Notes: generated by a model from the letters alone, not told the origin. Positions 914 to 8,455 are shown, counted from the stretch's first letter. The stretch: 37,928 nucleotides of DNA from Campylobacteraceae bacterium (GCA_026993075.1 JALWUQ010000074.1:1-37928), one strand, 5' to 3'. Numbers and translations: made by a program.

Positions 914-3481
914 TCAAGGTACGAAATGTAAAATCTCAGGTTCGCTGTAATTTGGTACATTATCATAAGTAAAAATACTATAATATTTCTCTTTATCAAG
1001 TGAGCCGAATGTATCATAAGTATAATCATCTTTTCCGCCGTATATCTTAACACCATCCATAAAGTTTTTGGGAGGATGAAAAGAGTTTCTGACAACATAA
1101 ACTCCGATGAAATCTTCATCTTTTGGGTTTTTCCATGATAATTTTATCCTCCCTTTGTCTATCTTGTTTGCAAGATTAGTTACTTTGGATACAGGTGTTT
1201 TTCTCCTATTTATGTATTCTATGATTAATTTTGGCTTTATACCCCACTTAACTATTCTGTTTTTTACATTACTTTGAGTTGAAGTTGGTTTTATGATGAT
1301 TTCAAGTCTTTTGCTGTTTGCATGGATATTTTCAAGTGATAATTTTGAGAGGGTGTCAAATATAAAATAATGTTTTTCTCTTTTTTTAAGATCAACATCT
1401 CTTATTTCATAACCAATATATTCTACTCTTTCTCTATTTTTTATATCTTCATAACTTAAAATAATATCATTATCCAAGAGTTCAAGATAAAAACTTATAC
1501 CTTTTGATTTTGTGTAAACTGTTTGATTGCTAAGTTCTATATATGCTCTTGTTATAACTGTCGTACATGAACTTGGAAGAGTTGAGAGATCATACTCTAA
1601 ATGCCCATAGATTTTATTGCCATCTTTATTGTATCCGCTTTCAAACTGGGATTTTTTAAGGTTTTGACTAATAGATTCGGCAATATTTGGTTCTATTTCT
1701 ATTTTTTGTGAAGGTATTGTGTATTTGATTTCGAGCATAGGACGGTAGTGAAGTCCACCTCCATAGTTTCCGTATCCTATATCAAACTGCATCATTTGAG
1801 AATCTTCGCCATAAGGCAGTGTTTTTGGTCCATCAACTCTAAAAACTGCTTTGTTTTTTATGAGTTCTTTTTGGAGCAAGGAGCATTGGTAAGAGGAAAA
1901 TTCCCAATAATTCCATATACCCTGAGTTAAAGACTGAGACTTGATAGCATCACCTATAACCTGGATACAAGGTGCATTTTCTACTTGAGCAAAATCAGCC
2001 ACATCATTTATGTCATCATTATCAAGCAAGCTCAAATTCCACTCACCAAATCTTTCTATTTTTGCCGCAACTCTGTTCATGGGATAAAGATGAAGTCTTG
2101 CTTTTTTTATGATGGCATTTTTTGGAATGGAACTTGTATCATAGCAAATAAGTGCGTTGCATATACCTTTTGTTTTGTTTATACCGACAAAAAGTGAATT
2201 ATTGCCAAAATGAGATCTATTTGTCTCATTCATATTTTCTCCGACATAGCCTGTCTCGTTTTTTAAGGCAAATAACATTTTTGAAAATTCATCTTTTTCC
2301 AAACCAGTTTTTACCTTTACAACAGGAGCAAAAGGAGATCGTAAATTTGTTTGTTTGTTTACCGCTCTTATGGTGTAGTAGTAAGTGGTGGCAGACTCTA
2401 ACTCAATGTCTTTAAAAGTGTGCTCTTTTGTTATGCCTACTATGTTTTGGATTTCGCAAGAGGCTTTATCTTTTGTATTTCTATAAATCTCAAAATAAAT
2501 ATCATTTCTTAATTCATAATCCCACCGGAGTTTTAAAAAAGTCTCTTCTACACATTGTATGGTAAAGTTATCAACTCTTTTAGGAGCTAATGAAGAGTAA
2601 TTGATAGTCTCTTTAAAAGCTTCTAAGAGTGCGGGAATGTTTTCATTGATACTGCTACTCATAACTTTCATATAATCTGGTATATTTTTAGTACCGACTT
2701 CTACAACGATAGCTTTGATGCCTTTTGAGTAATAGTACTCTCTACCGCTTCCGCTTATGAGTTTAGCAGGTGGTTTGCCTCTGTGTATACCATAGTTTCT
2801 ACCTGTTACTTTGTGTATTTTTTCACTCATATTAGCACATATTGTGTTAAGATCTGTTCCATCTATCTCTTGTTCGTGTCGAAATTTATGAGCTGGAAAA
2901 AATACATTTCCCTGCGAATGATAATCAAGTGCAATGGTTATATTATTATGAGTATCGACAAACTCTTTTATAGCTTTTGTCTCAGGTTCGCTAAATGCTT
3001 CTTCACCGCCATAAACATTTGAGCTCATTTGAGAAGTTTTAACAAAGCCTATGGAAAAATTTCTGTTTAAATCCACTCCATAAGAGCCGTCTTTGTTTTT
3101 CTTTCTGTTTTTTCTCCAAAATGAAAAGTGCTTTCTTGAATACTCAAATCCGTCAGGATTTAGGCAAGGTACCATATATAAAGTAGATCTTTTTAAATAC
3201 TCTTTTATTTGGGGATTTGTATCAAAATTATTTAAAATATATGTTATAAATTTTAAACATAGCTCATGTCCTATCCACTCTCTTGCATGTATGGTTCCTG
3301 TAAAAAGCAGTGCCGGTTTTGTACTCTCATTTTCTATATCAAACGATAAAGTTGCTAAAACAATATCTCTGTTTTCATGAGTTTTGCCTATGCTTTTTAC
3401 TTGTAAAATATCTGGAAATTTATCAGATAAATTTTTTAAAAGTTTTGTGCCTTCATCATAGGAAAGATATTGATTTTTCAA
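914..3481 (-). CDS. M14-family zinc carboxypeptidase with Fn3 and DNRLRE-like beta-sandwich modules and a C-terminal Fn3-like module; no signal peptide
   Basis: M14 motifs HAREWIGHE (Zn ligands), NPDG, DLNRNF, ALDYHSQGN (Zn His), VVEVG (catalytic Glu); 'NALICYDTSSIPKNAIIKKARLHLY' DNRLRE-like; Fn3-like 'TTYYYTIRAVN' and 'DEDFIGVYVVRN..'. Start codon is TTG with AAAGGAA upstream; the gene directly abuts the TAG of the upstream gene. Confidence 0.88.
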   Translation of the reverse strand: MKNQYLSYDEGTKLLKNLSDKFPDILQVKSIGKTHENRDIVLATLSFDIENESTKPALLFTGTIHAREWIGHELCLKFITYILNNFDTNPQIKEYLKRSTLYMVPCLNPDGFEYSRKHFSFWRKNRKKNKDGSYGVDLNRNFSIGFVKTSQMSSNVYGGEEAFSEPETKAIKEFVDTHNNITIALDYHSQGNVFFPAHKFRHEQEIDGTDLNTICANMSEKIHKVTGRNYGIHRGKPPAKLISGSGREYYYSKGIKAIVVEVGTKNIPDYMKVMSSSINENIPALLEAFKETINYSSLAPKRVDNFTIQCVEETFLKLRWDYELRNDIYFEIYRNTKDKASCEIQNIVGITKEHTFKDIELESATTYYYTIRAVNKQTNLRSPFAPVVKVKTGLEKDEFSKMLFALKNETGYVGENMNETNRSHFGNNSLFVGINKTKGICNALICYDTSSIPKNAIIKKARLHLYPMNRVAAKIERFGEWNLSLLDNDDINDVADFAQVENAPCIQVIGDAIKSQSLTQGIWNYWEFSSYQCSLLQKELIKNKAVFRVDGPKTLPYGEDSQMMQFDIGYGNYGGGLHYRPMLEIKYTIPSQKIEIEPNIAESISQNLKKSQFESGYNKDGNKIYGHLEYDLSTLPSSCTTVITRAYIELSNQTVYTKSKGISFYLELLDNDIILSYEDIKNRERVEYIGYEIRDVDLKKREKHYFIFDTLSKLSLENIHANSKRLEIIIKPTSTQSNVKNRIVKWGIKPKLIIEYINRRKTPVSKVTNLANKIDKGRIKLSWKNPKDEDFIGVYVVRNSFHPPKNFMDGVKIYGGKDDYTYDTFGSLDKEKYYSIFTYDNVPNYSEPEILHFVP

Positions 3482-4897
3482 CTATTTATTCCTTTTTTCT
3501 AAAAATTCATTCCATTTTTTCATAAGAGAATCAACAATACTTTTAGAAATACCTTTTATCTCAAGGAGCGCTTCAGGTTCAAACTGTAGAGTTTGCACTA
3601 TCTTTGAATGTTTCAAATCATTTAGTATAGCTTTTGCTTTTTTCTCTCCTATGCCTTTTACAGAAGTTAAGAATTTGTGTATCTCTTTATGGGTTAATCG
3701 TATCTTTTTAGATGCTTCATCTCCACTTGCAAAAGGAGTCTTTTCTCTTTTAAGATTTTTTACTTTCATAGACTTTATGCTCTTTAACGCAAATCTATCT
3801 TGAAAATTCCAAGTTTCACTCGGCCACTCTTCAAAAAGTTTTTTTCTCACATCAAACATTTGATATTTTTTATCAAGCTTATGAAGATATACTTTCTCTT
3901 TTCCAAAAGTTTTTTTCTTTTTCCCAAAATATGCTCCATCAAAACTTGGAGAATATTTTCCAAAATTTATATGTCTCATAGTTCTTAAAAGTGAACTGTC
4001 TATTTTGCCGAGTTCTTCCCAGTTAAACATAGGAATATGAGGTTTTCTCAAAGTTTTACTACTTAAACTCCACATCAAGTATTCTCCTATCCAGTCTCTT
4101 ACATAAGGAAATGCCGCAAACGCTGTCGCACATTCGAGTATCCTTACTTTGGAATCTTTGCCATAAGCAATATCGCATGCCCAGTATTCAGCTTTTGCTG
4201 CCTTGCTTGTCTTAACTGCTAAATCAAGAACAGATTTTGGAACATTTTGATAATCCATACTCCCGCCCTGAGAGGTATTTGTAAGCCATTCACCCTTAGG
4301 CGGTCTTCTCCAAAAAGCACATACAGGTTTGTGGCCTATTAGCATGACTCTGATATCAGCTTGCATTGGTATGAAATCCTGTATATACATAGGGTGATAT
4401 TTTTTCTTATCAAAAAGTTTTACAGCCTCTTTTTTACTGTCAACTTTATGTACGAAATAACCGCCATAGTTTGAAGGACCGTAGCTTCTTTTTATGATTT
4501 TTGGATATTTTGTTTTTTCTAAAAATTTATACCCCTTGCCTCTATCATAAAATATATGAGTTCTTGGGATTGGCAAGTGGTATTTCCATGCAAATCTTGT
4601 AACATTCTCTTTTGATTTATTGGAAAATTGAGTATCCAAAGAGGGGATAAATCTTACACCGGGCAATTCTCTTGCAATCTCTCTAAAAGTTTCATAAGCA
4701 GTTGCAGGGATATTGCCTATGAGTACATCAATCTTTTTCTTTTTAACTTCTTTTATAAATCTGTCTTTATCATTTTTCCAATGATAAGTCACACTCTCTA
4801 TCTTGTCAGGCCATCCTCTAAAGTTGGAATGGTCAAAAAACCTAAGTACATAATCCAAATACAAAAATCCGAGTTTTGGTAATTTTTTCTTACTCAT
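3482..4897 (-). CDS. ATP-grasp (RimK-like) ligase fused to a C-terminal tandem helix-hairpin-helix domain
   Basis: ATP-grasp segments 'YPKIIKRSYGPSNYGG', 'DIRVMLIGHKPVCAFWRRPPKGEWLTNTSQGGS', 'ACDIAYGKDSKVRILECATAF'; C-terminus 'VKGIGEKKAKAIL...EALLEIKGISKSIVDSL' resembles (HhH)2. Confidence 0.82.
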   Translation of the reverse strand: MSKKKLPKLGFLYLDYVLRFFDHSNFRGWPDKIESVTYHWKNDKDRFIKEVKKKKIDVLIGNIPATAYETFREIARELPGVRFIPSLDTQFSNKSKENVTRFAWKYHLPIPRTHIFYDRGKGYKFLEKTKYPKIIKRSYGPSNYGGYFVHKVDSKKEAVKLFDKKKYHPMYIQDFIPMQADIRVMLIGHKPVCAFWRRPPKGEWLTNTSQGGSMDYQNVPKSVLDLAVKTSKAAKAEYWACDIAYGKDSKVRILECATAFAAFPYVRDWIGEYLMWSLSSKTLRKPHIPMFNWEELGKIDSSLLRTMRHINFGKYSPSFDGAYFGKKKKTFGKEKVYLHKLDKKYQMFDVRKKLFEEWPSETWNFQDRFALKSIKSMKVKNLKREKTPFASGDEASKKIRLTHKEIHKFLTSVKGIGEKKAKAILNDLKHSKIVQTLQFEPEALLEIKGISKSIVDSLMKKWNEFLEKRNK

Positions 4898-5804
4898 TTG
4901 TTTCCTTTTGTTTTATTTTTCTATCTATCAGTTCGACTATTTTTTCTATCTTTTTATCATTAAAATCAAGTCCCATTTTTTCTTGCTCAGGGGTAGCAAA
5001 AGCTGGTATTCCATTTACTTCCAAGACTATATACTCTTCTTTTTTCTTATCATATATGATATCGACTCCTGCTATATCAAGTCCTGTTGCTTTAGTTGCA
5101 CTTATTGCCAAATCTATCAACTTATCATCTGCTTCTCTTAAAAATACAGTACCACCACTAGTTACATTTGTTCGCCAATCCCCATCTCCTGCTTTTCTAC
5201 CATAGCATGAGATAAATTTGCCATCTACTATATCGACTCTAAAATCGGTATTATCATATTCTATAAATCTCTCAAGATATAAAAATCTCAAATCCGCCTG
5301 GTTTAAAAAAGGCATAAGAACATCCAGCGTTGCCTCATTTTCTATCTTGGTAAGTCCAACTCCTCCCCAGCCGTCAACCGGTTTGTAAACCATCTTCTTC
5401 CACTCTCTTATAAACGCTTTTAAGTGTTTTTTGTCATCTCTATGGCAAAGTCTAAAATCAGTTGTAGGAATTGCGTTGTTTTTTAAAGTAAATGTTGTTT
5501 GAAATTTATCTTCAGTAAGCTCAAATGCTTCATAAGAGTTTATCATAGGAATAAGAGTATTTAAAATTTTGTACATATAAACTTGATATTGAGTTTGTTC
5601 ACCTGCGTTGTAGCTGAAAAATAGATCCAAATCATTAAGCAAAACATTGCCTATATAAATATTTTGACCAATAACTATAGCATCTCTCAAATTCAAATCA
5701 GTGATCGCATTTATATCTCTTTCTTTGAGTTTGGAAACAATTTTTTTTTCTACCTCTTTTCCGCCGCCGTTTTTATACATCCAGATACCGACAGTTCGCC
5801 TCAT
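4890..5804 (-). CDS. RimK-like ATP-grasp ligase (alpha-L-glutamate ligase type)
   Basis: 'MVYKPVDGWGGVGLTKI', 'DFRVDIVDGKFISCYGRKAGDGDWRTNVTSGGT', 'GVDIIYDKKKEEYIVLEVNGIPAF' ATP-grasp/RimK motifs with intact ExN; 8-nt overlap with the downstream ligase gene. Confidence 0.85.
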   Translation of the reverse strand: MRRTVGIWMYKNGGGKEVEKKIVSKLKERDINAITDLNLRDAIVIGQNIYIGNVLLNDLDLFFSYNAGEQTQYQVYMYKILNTLIPMINSYEAFELTEDKFQTTFTLKNNAIPTTDFRLCHRDDKKHLKAFIREWKKMVYKPVDGWGGVGLTKIENEATLDVLMPFLNQADLRFLYLERFIEYDNTDFRVDIVDGKFISCYGRKAGDGDWRTNVTSGGTVFLREADDKLIDLAISATKATGLDIAGVDIIYDKKKEEYIVLEVNGIPAFATPEQEKMGLDFNDKKIEKIVELIDRKIKQKETNE

Positions 5805-5833
5805 GATATAACTCCTAAGATCAGTTAATTATG

Positions 5834-5858
5834 AATTATACTGAAATTTAGTATAATT
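5834..5858. promoter_or_regulatory. Symmetrical divergent promoter/operator: AATTATACT-GAAATTT-AGTATAATT
   Basis: Exact 9-bp inverted repeat; each arm carries a TATAAT box (minus-strand 5835-5840, plus-strand 5852-5857) oriented outward toward the two divergent operons. Confidence 0.6.
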
Positions 5859-5892
5859 ATCAAAGCCAAATAGCTCAAGCAGGAGTGATAAT

Positions 5893-6990
5893 ATGAAATT
5901 TTTTAAAGAGTTAAAACAACTTGTGGAGATAAATTCTTATACCGAGAATAAAGTAGGAGTTGATAAAAATGGAGAAATTTATATAACAAAACTCATCCCT
6001 TTGGGGTTCGAATATAAAATATACAAAAGAGAAAATATAGGTAATCATTTACTTTTTACCTCACCAAAAAAAGAGGGTAAAAAATTGCTTCTTTTGGGTC
6101 ATATGGATACAGTTTTTCCAAAAGATATATTTGAAAAATATAGTGAAGATGAGACTTGGGTGTATGGACCTGGAGTTTGTGATATGAAAGGTGGTAATAT
6201 CGTAGCTATTGAAGCCCTTAGAAATATCTTTCATAAGTTTGGCAAGATTGAAAATATTGATTTTTTATTGGTAAGTGATGAAGAAGGGGGAAGTGACGAC
6301 TCTAAGTTTGTTACTTCCAAAGTGGCAAAAGAGTATGACTATGCACTTGTATATGAAGCTGCTGGGAAAAATATGGAAGTGGTAATTGCCAGAAAAGGTG
6401 CAGGGACTTTTTATGTAGATATAAAAGGCAAAGCAGCACATGCAGGCAACAACTATGCTTTGGGGGTTGATGCAAACTTAGAAGCAAGTTACAAACTTCA
6501 AGAGTTAGTGAAACTGACTGATACGAAAAAAGGTACAACTTTAAATGTGGGTAAGATAGAAGGAGGTGTTGGTGCAAACACTATATCTCCTCATGCAAAA
6601 ATGACTTTTGAGATAAGATACACAAATACAAATGAAAGAGATAGACTTGTAAAAGAGATCAACAAAATCATATCAACTTGTTATGTAAAAGGTACCAGAT
6701 CAACTCTTAGTGGTGGAATACAAAGAGATGTAATGCAACCGACTAAAGAGCAAAGTGAATTTTTAGAAAATATAGAAAAATTTATCACTAAAAAGCTACT
6801 TAAAGAAAAAAGAGGCGGAGTCAGTGATGCAAATATAGTAGCTTCCCAAAGGGTACCTGTACTTGATGGTTTTGGTCCTTTTGGAGATGGAGATCACACA
6901 AAAAAAGAAAGAGCATTAAAAAGCAGTTTCAAACAGAGGATAGAGCTTAGCACAAAGATTTTTGAAGGAGTATTAAAACACAAAATATAA
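5893..6990 (+). CDS. M20-family metallopeptidase, glutamate carboxypeptidase (CPG2)-like
   Basis: 'LLLLGHMDTVFPKD', 'GPGVCDMKGG', 'LLVSDEEGGSDDS', 'GKAAHAGNN', 'GDGDHT' M20 motifs; RBS AGGAG upstream. Confidence 0.9.
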   Translation: MKFFKELKQLVEINSYTENKVGVDKNGEIYITKLIPLGFEYKIYKRENIGNHLLFTSPKKEGKKLLLLGHMDTVFPKDIFEKYSEDETWVYGPGVCDMKGGNIVAIEALRNIFHKFGKIENIDFLLVSDEEGGSDDSKFVTSKVAKEYDYALVYEAAGKNMEVVIARKGAGTFYVDIKGKAAHAGNNYALGVDANLEASYKLQELVKLTDTKKGTTLNVGKIEGGVGANTISPHAKMTFEIRYTNTNERDRLVKEINKIISTCYVKGTRSTLSGGIQRDVMQPTKEQSEFLENIEKFITKKLLKEKRGGVSDANIVASQRVPVLDGFGPFGDGDHTKKERALKSSFKQRIELSTKIFEGVLKHKI

Positions 6991-7028: not shown

Positions 7029-7751
7029 TTAACCGGTATTTTGTATGCTTTTTTCAAAAAACAAGTGGGTTAGATATATTACGAAAAAAACTTGAAAAAA
7101 GAGTCCTAAAATGGGTATTAGCGAGATTATATAAAATATCAAAGTAGTTGCTATGAAGCTTTTTTTCTCTTTTTGGGTTATGAGTGTATATCTTTTGTAA
7201 TTTTCTATGTTTGAGCCTATGTCTATAATCAAGAGGTTGTGAAAAAGGTAGTAAAAAGGTATATTAAATATAAAAAAGTTTACCCCCGGTACTATTAGAA
7301 GTGGGATTGCAACAAATATAAGAAATATAAAAATACTGACAGTTTTGACATATAACCATACAGATTTGCCAAAATCTATCTCTCCTCTTATAAAATTGGG
7401 ATAGTATTTTTTCTGTAAGGTTTTTACAATGTATGGTGTAAAAAAGCCTATGACAATAATAGCGATAATGACTGAAAAAAGCACTATCAAAATAGTACCG
7501 AAAAGATAAAAAAAAGTTATCAATACCCACTTTACAAGAGCTAAGGTAAATATGTAATTAACAATAGGATGGATGTCAGGATTAATATTTGTAAAGTTAT
7601 TGCCGTTTGAATTTAAGAAATTAATAAATTCACTGCCGCTATAGAGAAAAAAGCTTCCAAATACCAAAAAAGAGATTAAAAAAGGAAGAGTTGAAAGAAG
7701 TAAAAATTTTAGTGTAAAAAAATCTTCCAGACTCTTTTTTAGTGTGTTCAT
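7029..7751 (-). CDS. EI24 domain-containing inner-membrane protein
   Basis: 240 aa, multiple hydrophobic TM segments, EI24/CysZ-like layout; ATGA overlap with upstream gene. Confidence 0.7.
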   Translation of the reverse strand: MNTLKKSLEDFFTLKFLLLSTLPFLISFLVFGSFFLYSGSEFINFLNSNGNNFTNINPDIHPIVNYIFTLALVKWVLITFFYLFGTILIVLFSVIIAIIVIGFFTPYIVKTLQKKYYPNFIRGEIDFGKSVWLYVKTVSIFIFLIFVAIPLLIVPGVNFFIFNIPFYYLFHNLLIIDIGSNIENYKRYTLITQKEKKSFIATTLIFYIISLIPILGLFFQVFFVIYLTHLFFEKSIQNTG

Positions 7752-8455
7752 GCTATCTTTTGATATGCTTTTTCCAATTCTTTATATAATTGATTTGGAG
7801 TAATTTTTGGCTGTTCATTAATAATCTTATTCATAGTGATATTATCTTCGACATCACCCCATAATTTTTTATATGTTCCTTCTTTGTAACCGTTATCTTG
7901 TCTAAATTTATTTAGTACATTTTTTCCAACATAAACTTTATACAGTGAATATAAGTTTAAACCGCAGTTGTGAGCTACTGTAAAATACTCGCTTAAAATC
8001 ATCTCAAAAGGATTATTGTGTATCCCTGAGGTTATATGTATAATTCTTTCTACTTGATTGATGATTTCCATTTGATTTACATTTTTTATATTTTTTGGCT
8101 CTTTGCAAAATGTTTTAAAGCTTTTGTTATCCATAATATATGAGGTGATTTCATCAATTCCGCCTATTTTGTTATTGTGATAATATTCAAGCGCCAAACT
8201 CATAATAAAGTGCCAAATATCAATAACTTCTATCTGTATATTTTGCCAGTCAGGAGAGCCATTTATATTTTTCCAGTGTTTCCATGTGAAGCTGTCTATC
8301 AACTCGGTACACTCCATATAAATACATCTTTTCCAGCTGATTATACGGTCATATTTATTGTATCCGCTTTCCCATCCTTTTCCATTTGTATCATCATTTA
8401 ATGTTTGTTGCATTTCAAGCATAGTTTTTAGCATTTGTTCATTATTTAAGTTCAT
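7748..8455 (-). CDS. dut: Dimeric dUTP diphosphatase (Campylobacter-type)
   Basis: 'WKRCIYMECTELIDSFTWKHWK' and 'IEVIDIWHFIMSLALE' MazG-like/dimeric dUTPase helical motifs. Confidence 0.88.
   Translation of the reverse strand: MNLNNEQMLKTMLEMQQTLNDDTNGKGWESGYNKYDRIISWKRCIYMECTELIDSFTWKHWKNINGSPDWQNIQIEVIDIWHFIMSLALEYYHNNKIGGIDEITSYIMDNKSFKTFCKEPKNIKNVNQMEIINQVERIIHITSGIHNNPFEMILSEYFTVAHNCGLNLYSLYKVYVGKNVLNKFRQDNGYKEGTYKKLWGDVEDNITMNKIINEQPKITPNQLYKELEKAYQKIA

Follow-up and report, generated by a model that had tools for sequence, protein, structure and literature searches.

Why would a bacterium encode two putative amino-acid ligases side by side with two enzymes of the kind that remove amino acids? 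This question is raised by a 37,928-nt stretch of DNA from a Campylobacteraceae bacterium (GCA_026993075.1 JALWUQ010000074.1:1-37928; hereafter the window), which carries two genes for ATP-grasp enzymes (AG1 and AG2), a gene for an M14 carboxypeptidase and, divergently oriented, a gene for an M20 metallohydrolase. The original prediction, made from the sequence of the window alone, was that these genes form an undescribed module of "writers" and "erasers" of peptide or isopeptide bonds. Our data give good support to the view that the four genes constitute one such undescribed writer/eraser-type module, as they are co-conserved, appear to be co-transferred and occur together when unlinked.

Whole-genome searches with each of the four proteins in 100 Campylobacterales genomes revealed that 32 genomes contain all four genes and 63 contain none. 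The remaining five depart from this pattern: G001 has only M20 and AG1, G009 has M20 and M14 plus part of AG2 at the edge of a contig, and G004, G008 and G043 have M20 alone. Pairwise co-occurrence gave Fisher p values of 1e-21 to 1e-25 for these 100 genomes, which are not phylogenetically independent. More importantly, the four genes lie on different contigs in G018, G058, G070 and G082, and mostly far from the contig ends; AG2 lies elsewhere on the same chromosome in G023, and M14 is on a separate contig in G033. Therefore, the co-occurrence is independent of linkage, and the retention of the set in genomes without linkage indicates that selection holds the four genes together. The co-conservation by which the original prediction was to be checked is thus strongly borne out, also by the unlinked cases and by the Photobacterium copy described below, and the four genes did not each match a characterized unrelated pathway.

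The arrangement of the genes was compared in 120 campylobacterotal loci. All four genes are present in 74 of them in the order M20, AG1, AG2, M14, with M20 divergent in 47 and co-directional in 27, and adjacency is strict in 59 of the 64 loci having four full-length genes. AG2 was found in 111 of 400 genomes of the order Campylobacterales (~28% of sampled species) and in 35 of 87 genera; the named contigs (80 kept of 366 relatives) belong to Sulfurimonas, Sulfurovum, Arcobacter, Sulfurospirillum and uncultured Campylobacterota. Moreover, Photobacterium sp. DA100, a member of the Gammaproteobacteria, carries the complete divergon, with 4-nt overlaps at both the AG1/AG2 and AG2/M14 joints. Since identity between its AG2 and the campylobacterotal copies reaches 73%, and identity among the latter can be as low as 63%, the comparison points to horizontal transfer of the whole unit as the simplest explanation of the Photobacterium copy. 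No relatives of AG2 were found in IMG/VR viral contigs or phage records, and a viral origin was rejected.

Several further features of individual lineages were recorded. The four genes are dispersed through the genome in families f23 and f11 (L038, L039, L040, L056-L059, L219-L222). One genome with the full module, G048, has two extra M14 copies of 46-47% identity on short contig stretches (G048:C17:2-2278 and G048:C18:2-2278). At L052 (G079:C1:157068-157475), a decayed AG2 with five in-frame stop codons shares its stretch with a gene for elongation factor P (EF-P); the genome has no AG1, M14 or M20, and this remnant is a case of the module being lost as a set. Pairwise distances over 64 loci correlate well among AG2, M14 and M20 (r=0.74-0.85) and poorly between AG1 and AG2 (r=0.38), which suggests that AG1 has been exchanged between lineages or evolves differently.

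Pfam searches agreed with the predicted assignment of the proteins to the ATP-grasp (RimK), M14 and M20 families. AG1 matches RimK at 3.5e-22, and its nearest NCBIfam model is MptN, the tetrahydromethanopterin:glutamate ligase (6.9e-43, 146.8 bits against a cut-off of 350). It has both the RimK-like ATP-grasp fold and the D/E/N metal triad, which is canonical (D248/E262/N264) and invariant in 69 homologues; judged by its sequence, AG1 belongs to the RimK/LysX/MptN clade of amino-acid ligases. AG2 also matches RimK above the cut-off (4.5e-12), followed by HHH_5 (4e-6). Its RimK/LysX-like core (approximately residues 1-330) is extremely conserved, at ~65-75% identity, and its C-terminal HhH region is variable: short in the window, longer in f4, f9 and parts of f6 and f20, and absent in f23, in which AG2 has 381 aa. 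The AlphaFold model of AG2 (pLDDT 57) is too weak for a judgement of the active site; its Foldseek neighbours are ArgX/LysX, PsnB and RimK.

The M14 protein matches Peptidase_M14 at 6e-59. A carboxypeptidase A (CPA)-type catalytic domain (residues 1-300) is followed by an fn3 domain, two beta domains that are DNRLRE-like (the DNRLRE match is just under the cut-off) and a second fn3-like domain; the AlphaFold model has an overall pLDDT of 82, and the nearest folds are CPT, CPB, CPA and CPO. All the hallmarks of the family (HxxE...H, Asn-Arg and the catalytic Glu) are present: the zinc ligands H65/E68/H188, N139-R140 and the catalytic E261 are invariant in 54 sequences; R126 and R247 are invariant as well. 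Arg247 aligns with CPA position 255 (Ile255 in CPA4), a determinant of preference for acidic C-termini. Arg255 confers acidic C-terminal specificity in carboxypeptidase O (CPO), and an enzyme carrying Arg255 cleaves FA-Glu-Glu (PMC9925722). The glutamate or acidic-residue theme of the original prediction thereby gains support from the M14 sequence, and an acidic-residue pocket fits the trimming of residues added by RimK-like ligases. No signal peptide or hydrophobic leader was detected in M14 or its 81 homologues, which is why M14 is probably cytoplasmic despite its extracellular-looking domains.

The M20 protein matches M20 and M20_dimer (~1e-19), and carboxypeptidase G2 (CPG2) is its best match in the PDB (1e-39). 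The residues of the two-zinc site and the catalytic Glu of CPG2 align with conserved H70, D97, E130/E131, E155 and H335. The positions aligned to CPG2 Arg324, His229 and Asn275 are also conserved and include the CPG2-like carboxylate-binding Arg.

Taken together, we give roughly even credence to a self-contained cycle in the cytoplasm by which amide bonds to amino acids, most likely to acidic ones, are formed and broken, with two steps in each direction. A closed cycle is the best explanation because two ligases and two hydrolases are inherited as a set without any other fixed partner. From co-conservation, co-occurrence, residue conservation, homology and the lack of signal peptides we infer its ligation chemistry, acidic specificity, order of steps and reversibility as follows. 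AG1, with AG2 acting alongside or after it, would ligate amino acids to a carboxyl group using ATP, in the manner of RimK, LysX and MptN, with glutamate as the leading candidate. M14 would trim a C-terminal acidic residue through its Arg247 specificity pocket, and M20 would split the remaining dipeptide-like bond. The lack of a linked substrate gene and the transfer as a unit suggest that the acceptor would be either a small compound or peptide derived from common metabolites or a common, widespread cellular protein. The former is slightly favored because the module is not accompanied by a substrate gene; a macromolecular acceptor may be argued from the HhH region of AG2, which is of nucleic-acid-binding type, and from the large binding domains of M14.

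Several observations weigh against such a cycle. The ExN metal motif of AG2 reads LECATAF: D242 and E255 are kept, and the Asn is replaced by A257 and is missing in all sequences of a 104-sequence alignment. Without the third metal ligand, AG2 could serve as a regulator or amount to a pseudo-ligase. M14 is one residue shorter than CPA4 between the aligned Arg247 and the catalytic Glu, so that the position-255 register is provisional, and the position of CPA Tyr248 is occupied by Lys, Thr or Asn. CPG2 Lys208, which we take to be a residue of the glutamate pocket, aligns with the conserved Glu162 in M20, which argues against a glutamate-specific hydrolase; therefore, calling M20 a glutamate carboxypeptidase is not justified. 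Of the predicted writer/eraser module, the co-conserved, undescribed unit is well supported and the acidic theme gains support from M14 Arg247, whereas the removal of C-terminal glutamate by M20 is not supported. Moreover, the system need not be reversible, and M14 and M20 could be maturation or salvage enzymes. Finally, ribosomal protein S6 was rejected as a target: its C-terminal tails are alike in 20 module-positive and 20 module-negative genomes, with the tails of G068 (positive) and G042 (negative) identical and that of the module-positive G074 non-acidic.

No recurrent fifth gene beyond housekeeping neighbours was found across families among open reading frames (ORFs) of at least 60 aa in the 120 loci. 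The most frequent neighbour is dUTPase, which is no more than two genes away from the module in 3 families. EF-P was considered as a target and rejected, as it is absent from the neighbours recurring across families in these loci and EpmA gave no contrast: EpmA (TIGR00462) had no match over the cut-off in the 100 genomes, the best matches being in ~500-aa frames taken as LysRS. Locally, AG2 has been relocated beside the EF-P gene in Sulfurimonas, in the order EF-P, AG2, dnaE, and EF-P is directly upstream of M20-AG1-AG2 in some Sulfurovum contigs (these arrangements are those of L025 7336-9418, L110 242-2254, L088, L091 and L097). This adjacency may reflect synteny by chance or may point to a translation-related target.

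The two forms of acceptor lead to different accounts of the module. In one, the two ligases would assemble a di- or tripeptide, such as an osmolyte, storage or thiol-like peptide, which M14 and M20 would recycle, a role also proposed for the hydrolase of the operon for the osmolyte N-acetylglutaminylglutamine amide (NAGGN). This is a possible account, which we hold tentatively. It agrees with a self-contained locus that has no substrate gene and moved in one piece into an unrelated host, with the typical action of M20 enzymes on dipeptides, and with a conservation of AG2 that is housekeeping-like yet combined with the patchy distribution given above. However, no direct link to osmolytes emerged: complementarity with ectoine was rejected, since ectoine synthase occurs in 6 of the 100 genomes, 2 of them module-positive, and the NAGGN ligase model TIGR03103 had no match at E<=1e-60 in the 100 genomes, a search in which the positive control was also silent (AG1 scores 25.6 against 569 bits). 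The large binding domains of M14 also seem excessive for a dipeptide. Those domains, with fn3 and DNRLRE-like folds, and the HhH region on most AG2 proteins would suit the other account, in which the ligases add acidic residues to the C-terminus or side chains of a cellular protein, much as in S6 modification by RimK or the glutamylation of tubulin, with M14 as the deglutamylase and M20 finishing the released oligopeptides. RimK-type ligases, an M14 Arg aligned to position 255 and the precedent of RimK/RimB, in which RpsF is polyglutamylated and the modification removed (PMC11957791), speak for this, but the HhH region is dispensable, as f23 AG2 lacks it, the S6 tails do not track the module and no target-protein gene is linked to it in the 120 loci. 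We consider protein tailing somewhat doubtful. A narrower version has a widespread protein, possibly a nucleic-acid-associated one in view of the HhH region of AG2, dynamically and reversibly tailed by a previously undescribed bacterial set of two ATP-grasp writers plus two metallopeptidase erasers that can pass between phyla as a unit; this version strikes us as a little more doubtful still.

Two other explanations fare far worse. AG1 shares its broad family with LysX, and M20 with LysK, and the low-confidence AG2 model is nearest ArgX; AG1 and M20 might therefore take the roles of LysX/ArgX and LysK, respectively, on a LysW-like amino-group carrier protein. LysW itself, however, had no match in any of the 100 genomes and was detected in the positive-control genomes, and the LysX and LysK equivalog cut-offs were missed, which makes such a carrier very improbable. 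That the four enzymes are coincidental neighbours without joint function, for which the M20-only genomes G043, G004 and G008 might be cited, is scarcely credible: the all-or-none pattern holds across families, in unlinked genomes and in another phylum, and refutes coincidence at the level of co-occurrence.

As the genes are all present or all absent even when scattered, selection for the complete set must be strong, and a knock-out should therefore give a clear biochemical phenotype. Such work would bring to light either a new peptide metabolite in free-living Campylobacterota or, alternatively, a new reversible modification of proteins whose writers and erasers are defined. The AG2 core with its altered metal motif is an enzymological question in its own right. 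By the distribution of AG2, the module concerns ~28% of the sampled Campylobacterales species and is undescribed in the literature searched.

The layout of the locus is given in the table. ORF analysis reproduced the gene structure originally described, including the 8-nt overlap of AG1 and AG2, the 0-nt gap between AG2 and M14 and the divergent spacer. Upstream of AG1, a sigma-70-like promoter (TTGATA-17-TATAAT, 11 of 12 consensus positions, 5863-5835 on the minus strand) is a consensus match only, and promoter-like matches across the region are no commoner than in shuffled sequences. Ribosome-binding-site-like AGGAG/GGAG motifs, again consensus matches only, precede both the AG1 and M20 starts, and no Rfam-type RNA elements were found near the locus. 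Downstream of M20, genes for an EI24-family membrane protein and dUTPase occupy 7029-8455 of the window. Positions 123-886 hold a pair of small overlapping ORFs (98 and 156 aa) that end beside M14 in the genus of the window; the pair was seen in two of the compared loci and has no Pfam or NCBIfam match above the cut-off.

Table. Genes of the module and the region between its divergent starts, in window positions.
Feature	Position	Strand	Description
M14 carboxypeptidase	914-3481	minus	855 aa, TTG start
AG2, ATP-grasp with C-terminal HhH	3482-4897	minus	471 aa
AG1, RimK-type ATP-grasp	4890-5804	minus	304 aa
Divergent intergenic region	5805-5892	none	88 nt between AG1 and M20 starts
M20 metallohydrolase, carboxypeptidase G2 type	5893-6990	plus	365 aa; divergent from AG1-AG2-M14

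Each enzyme family and several related writer/eraser pairs are already known; the combination of the four genes appears new, no published account having been found in the searchable literature, although an earlier mention may exist. The NAGGN operon combines an ATP-grasp peptide ligase and a peptidase in a self-contained metabolite operon, whereas the module lacks its GNAT/ATP-grasp fusion, asparagine-synthase-like gene and M42 hydrolase. LysX and LysK are a known writer/eraser-type pair, and the LysX/ArgX-LysW-LysK pathway resembles the module in joining ATP-grasp ligation to release by an M20 enzyme; in contrast, the module has no LysW, contains an additional ligase and M14, and scores 94.6 against 275.6 for LysX and 46.5 against 363 for LysK. 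The MptN match to AG1 is nearly full length and the best in NCBIfam, but its score is less than half the curated cut-off, and the cofactor on which MptN acts belongs to archaea, where the three partner genes are not known. Graspetide clusters (MvdC/MvdD, PsnB) have a precursor peptide adjacent to the ligase; the module ligases score far under the MvdC/MvdD cut-offs, and no recurrent neighbour was found among ORFs of at least 60 aa. The tubulin TTL ligases are writers of ATP-grasp fold, and CCP, an M14 enzyme with a basic specificity residue, is their eraser; these proteins are eukaryotic and of other subfamilies, the module M14 is closer to CPA, CPB, CPO and CPT, and no tubulin-like target was identified.

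The RimK/RimB system (RimABK) of S6/RpsF polyglutamylation shares with the module a RimK-type ATP-grasp writer, a proteolytic eraser and an acidic theme. RimB is a retropepsin-like aspartic protease (PMC11957791), whereas the erasers at our locus are M14 and M20 metalloenzymes (RimB was not searched genome-wide) and the ligases number two; against the S6--glutamate ligase model NF007764, AG1 scores 55.2 and AG2 16.8 bits, with a cut-off of 331. Human CPO is secreted and single-domain, whereas the module M14, at ~25% identity, is predicted to be cytoplasmic and has ~550 aa of extra domains; nevertheless, both carry Arg at the equivalent of position 255, to which the acidic C-terminal specificity of CPO is ascribed (PMC9925722).

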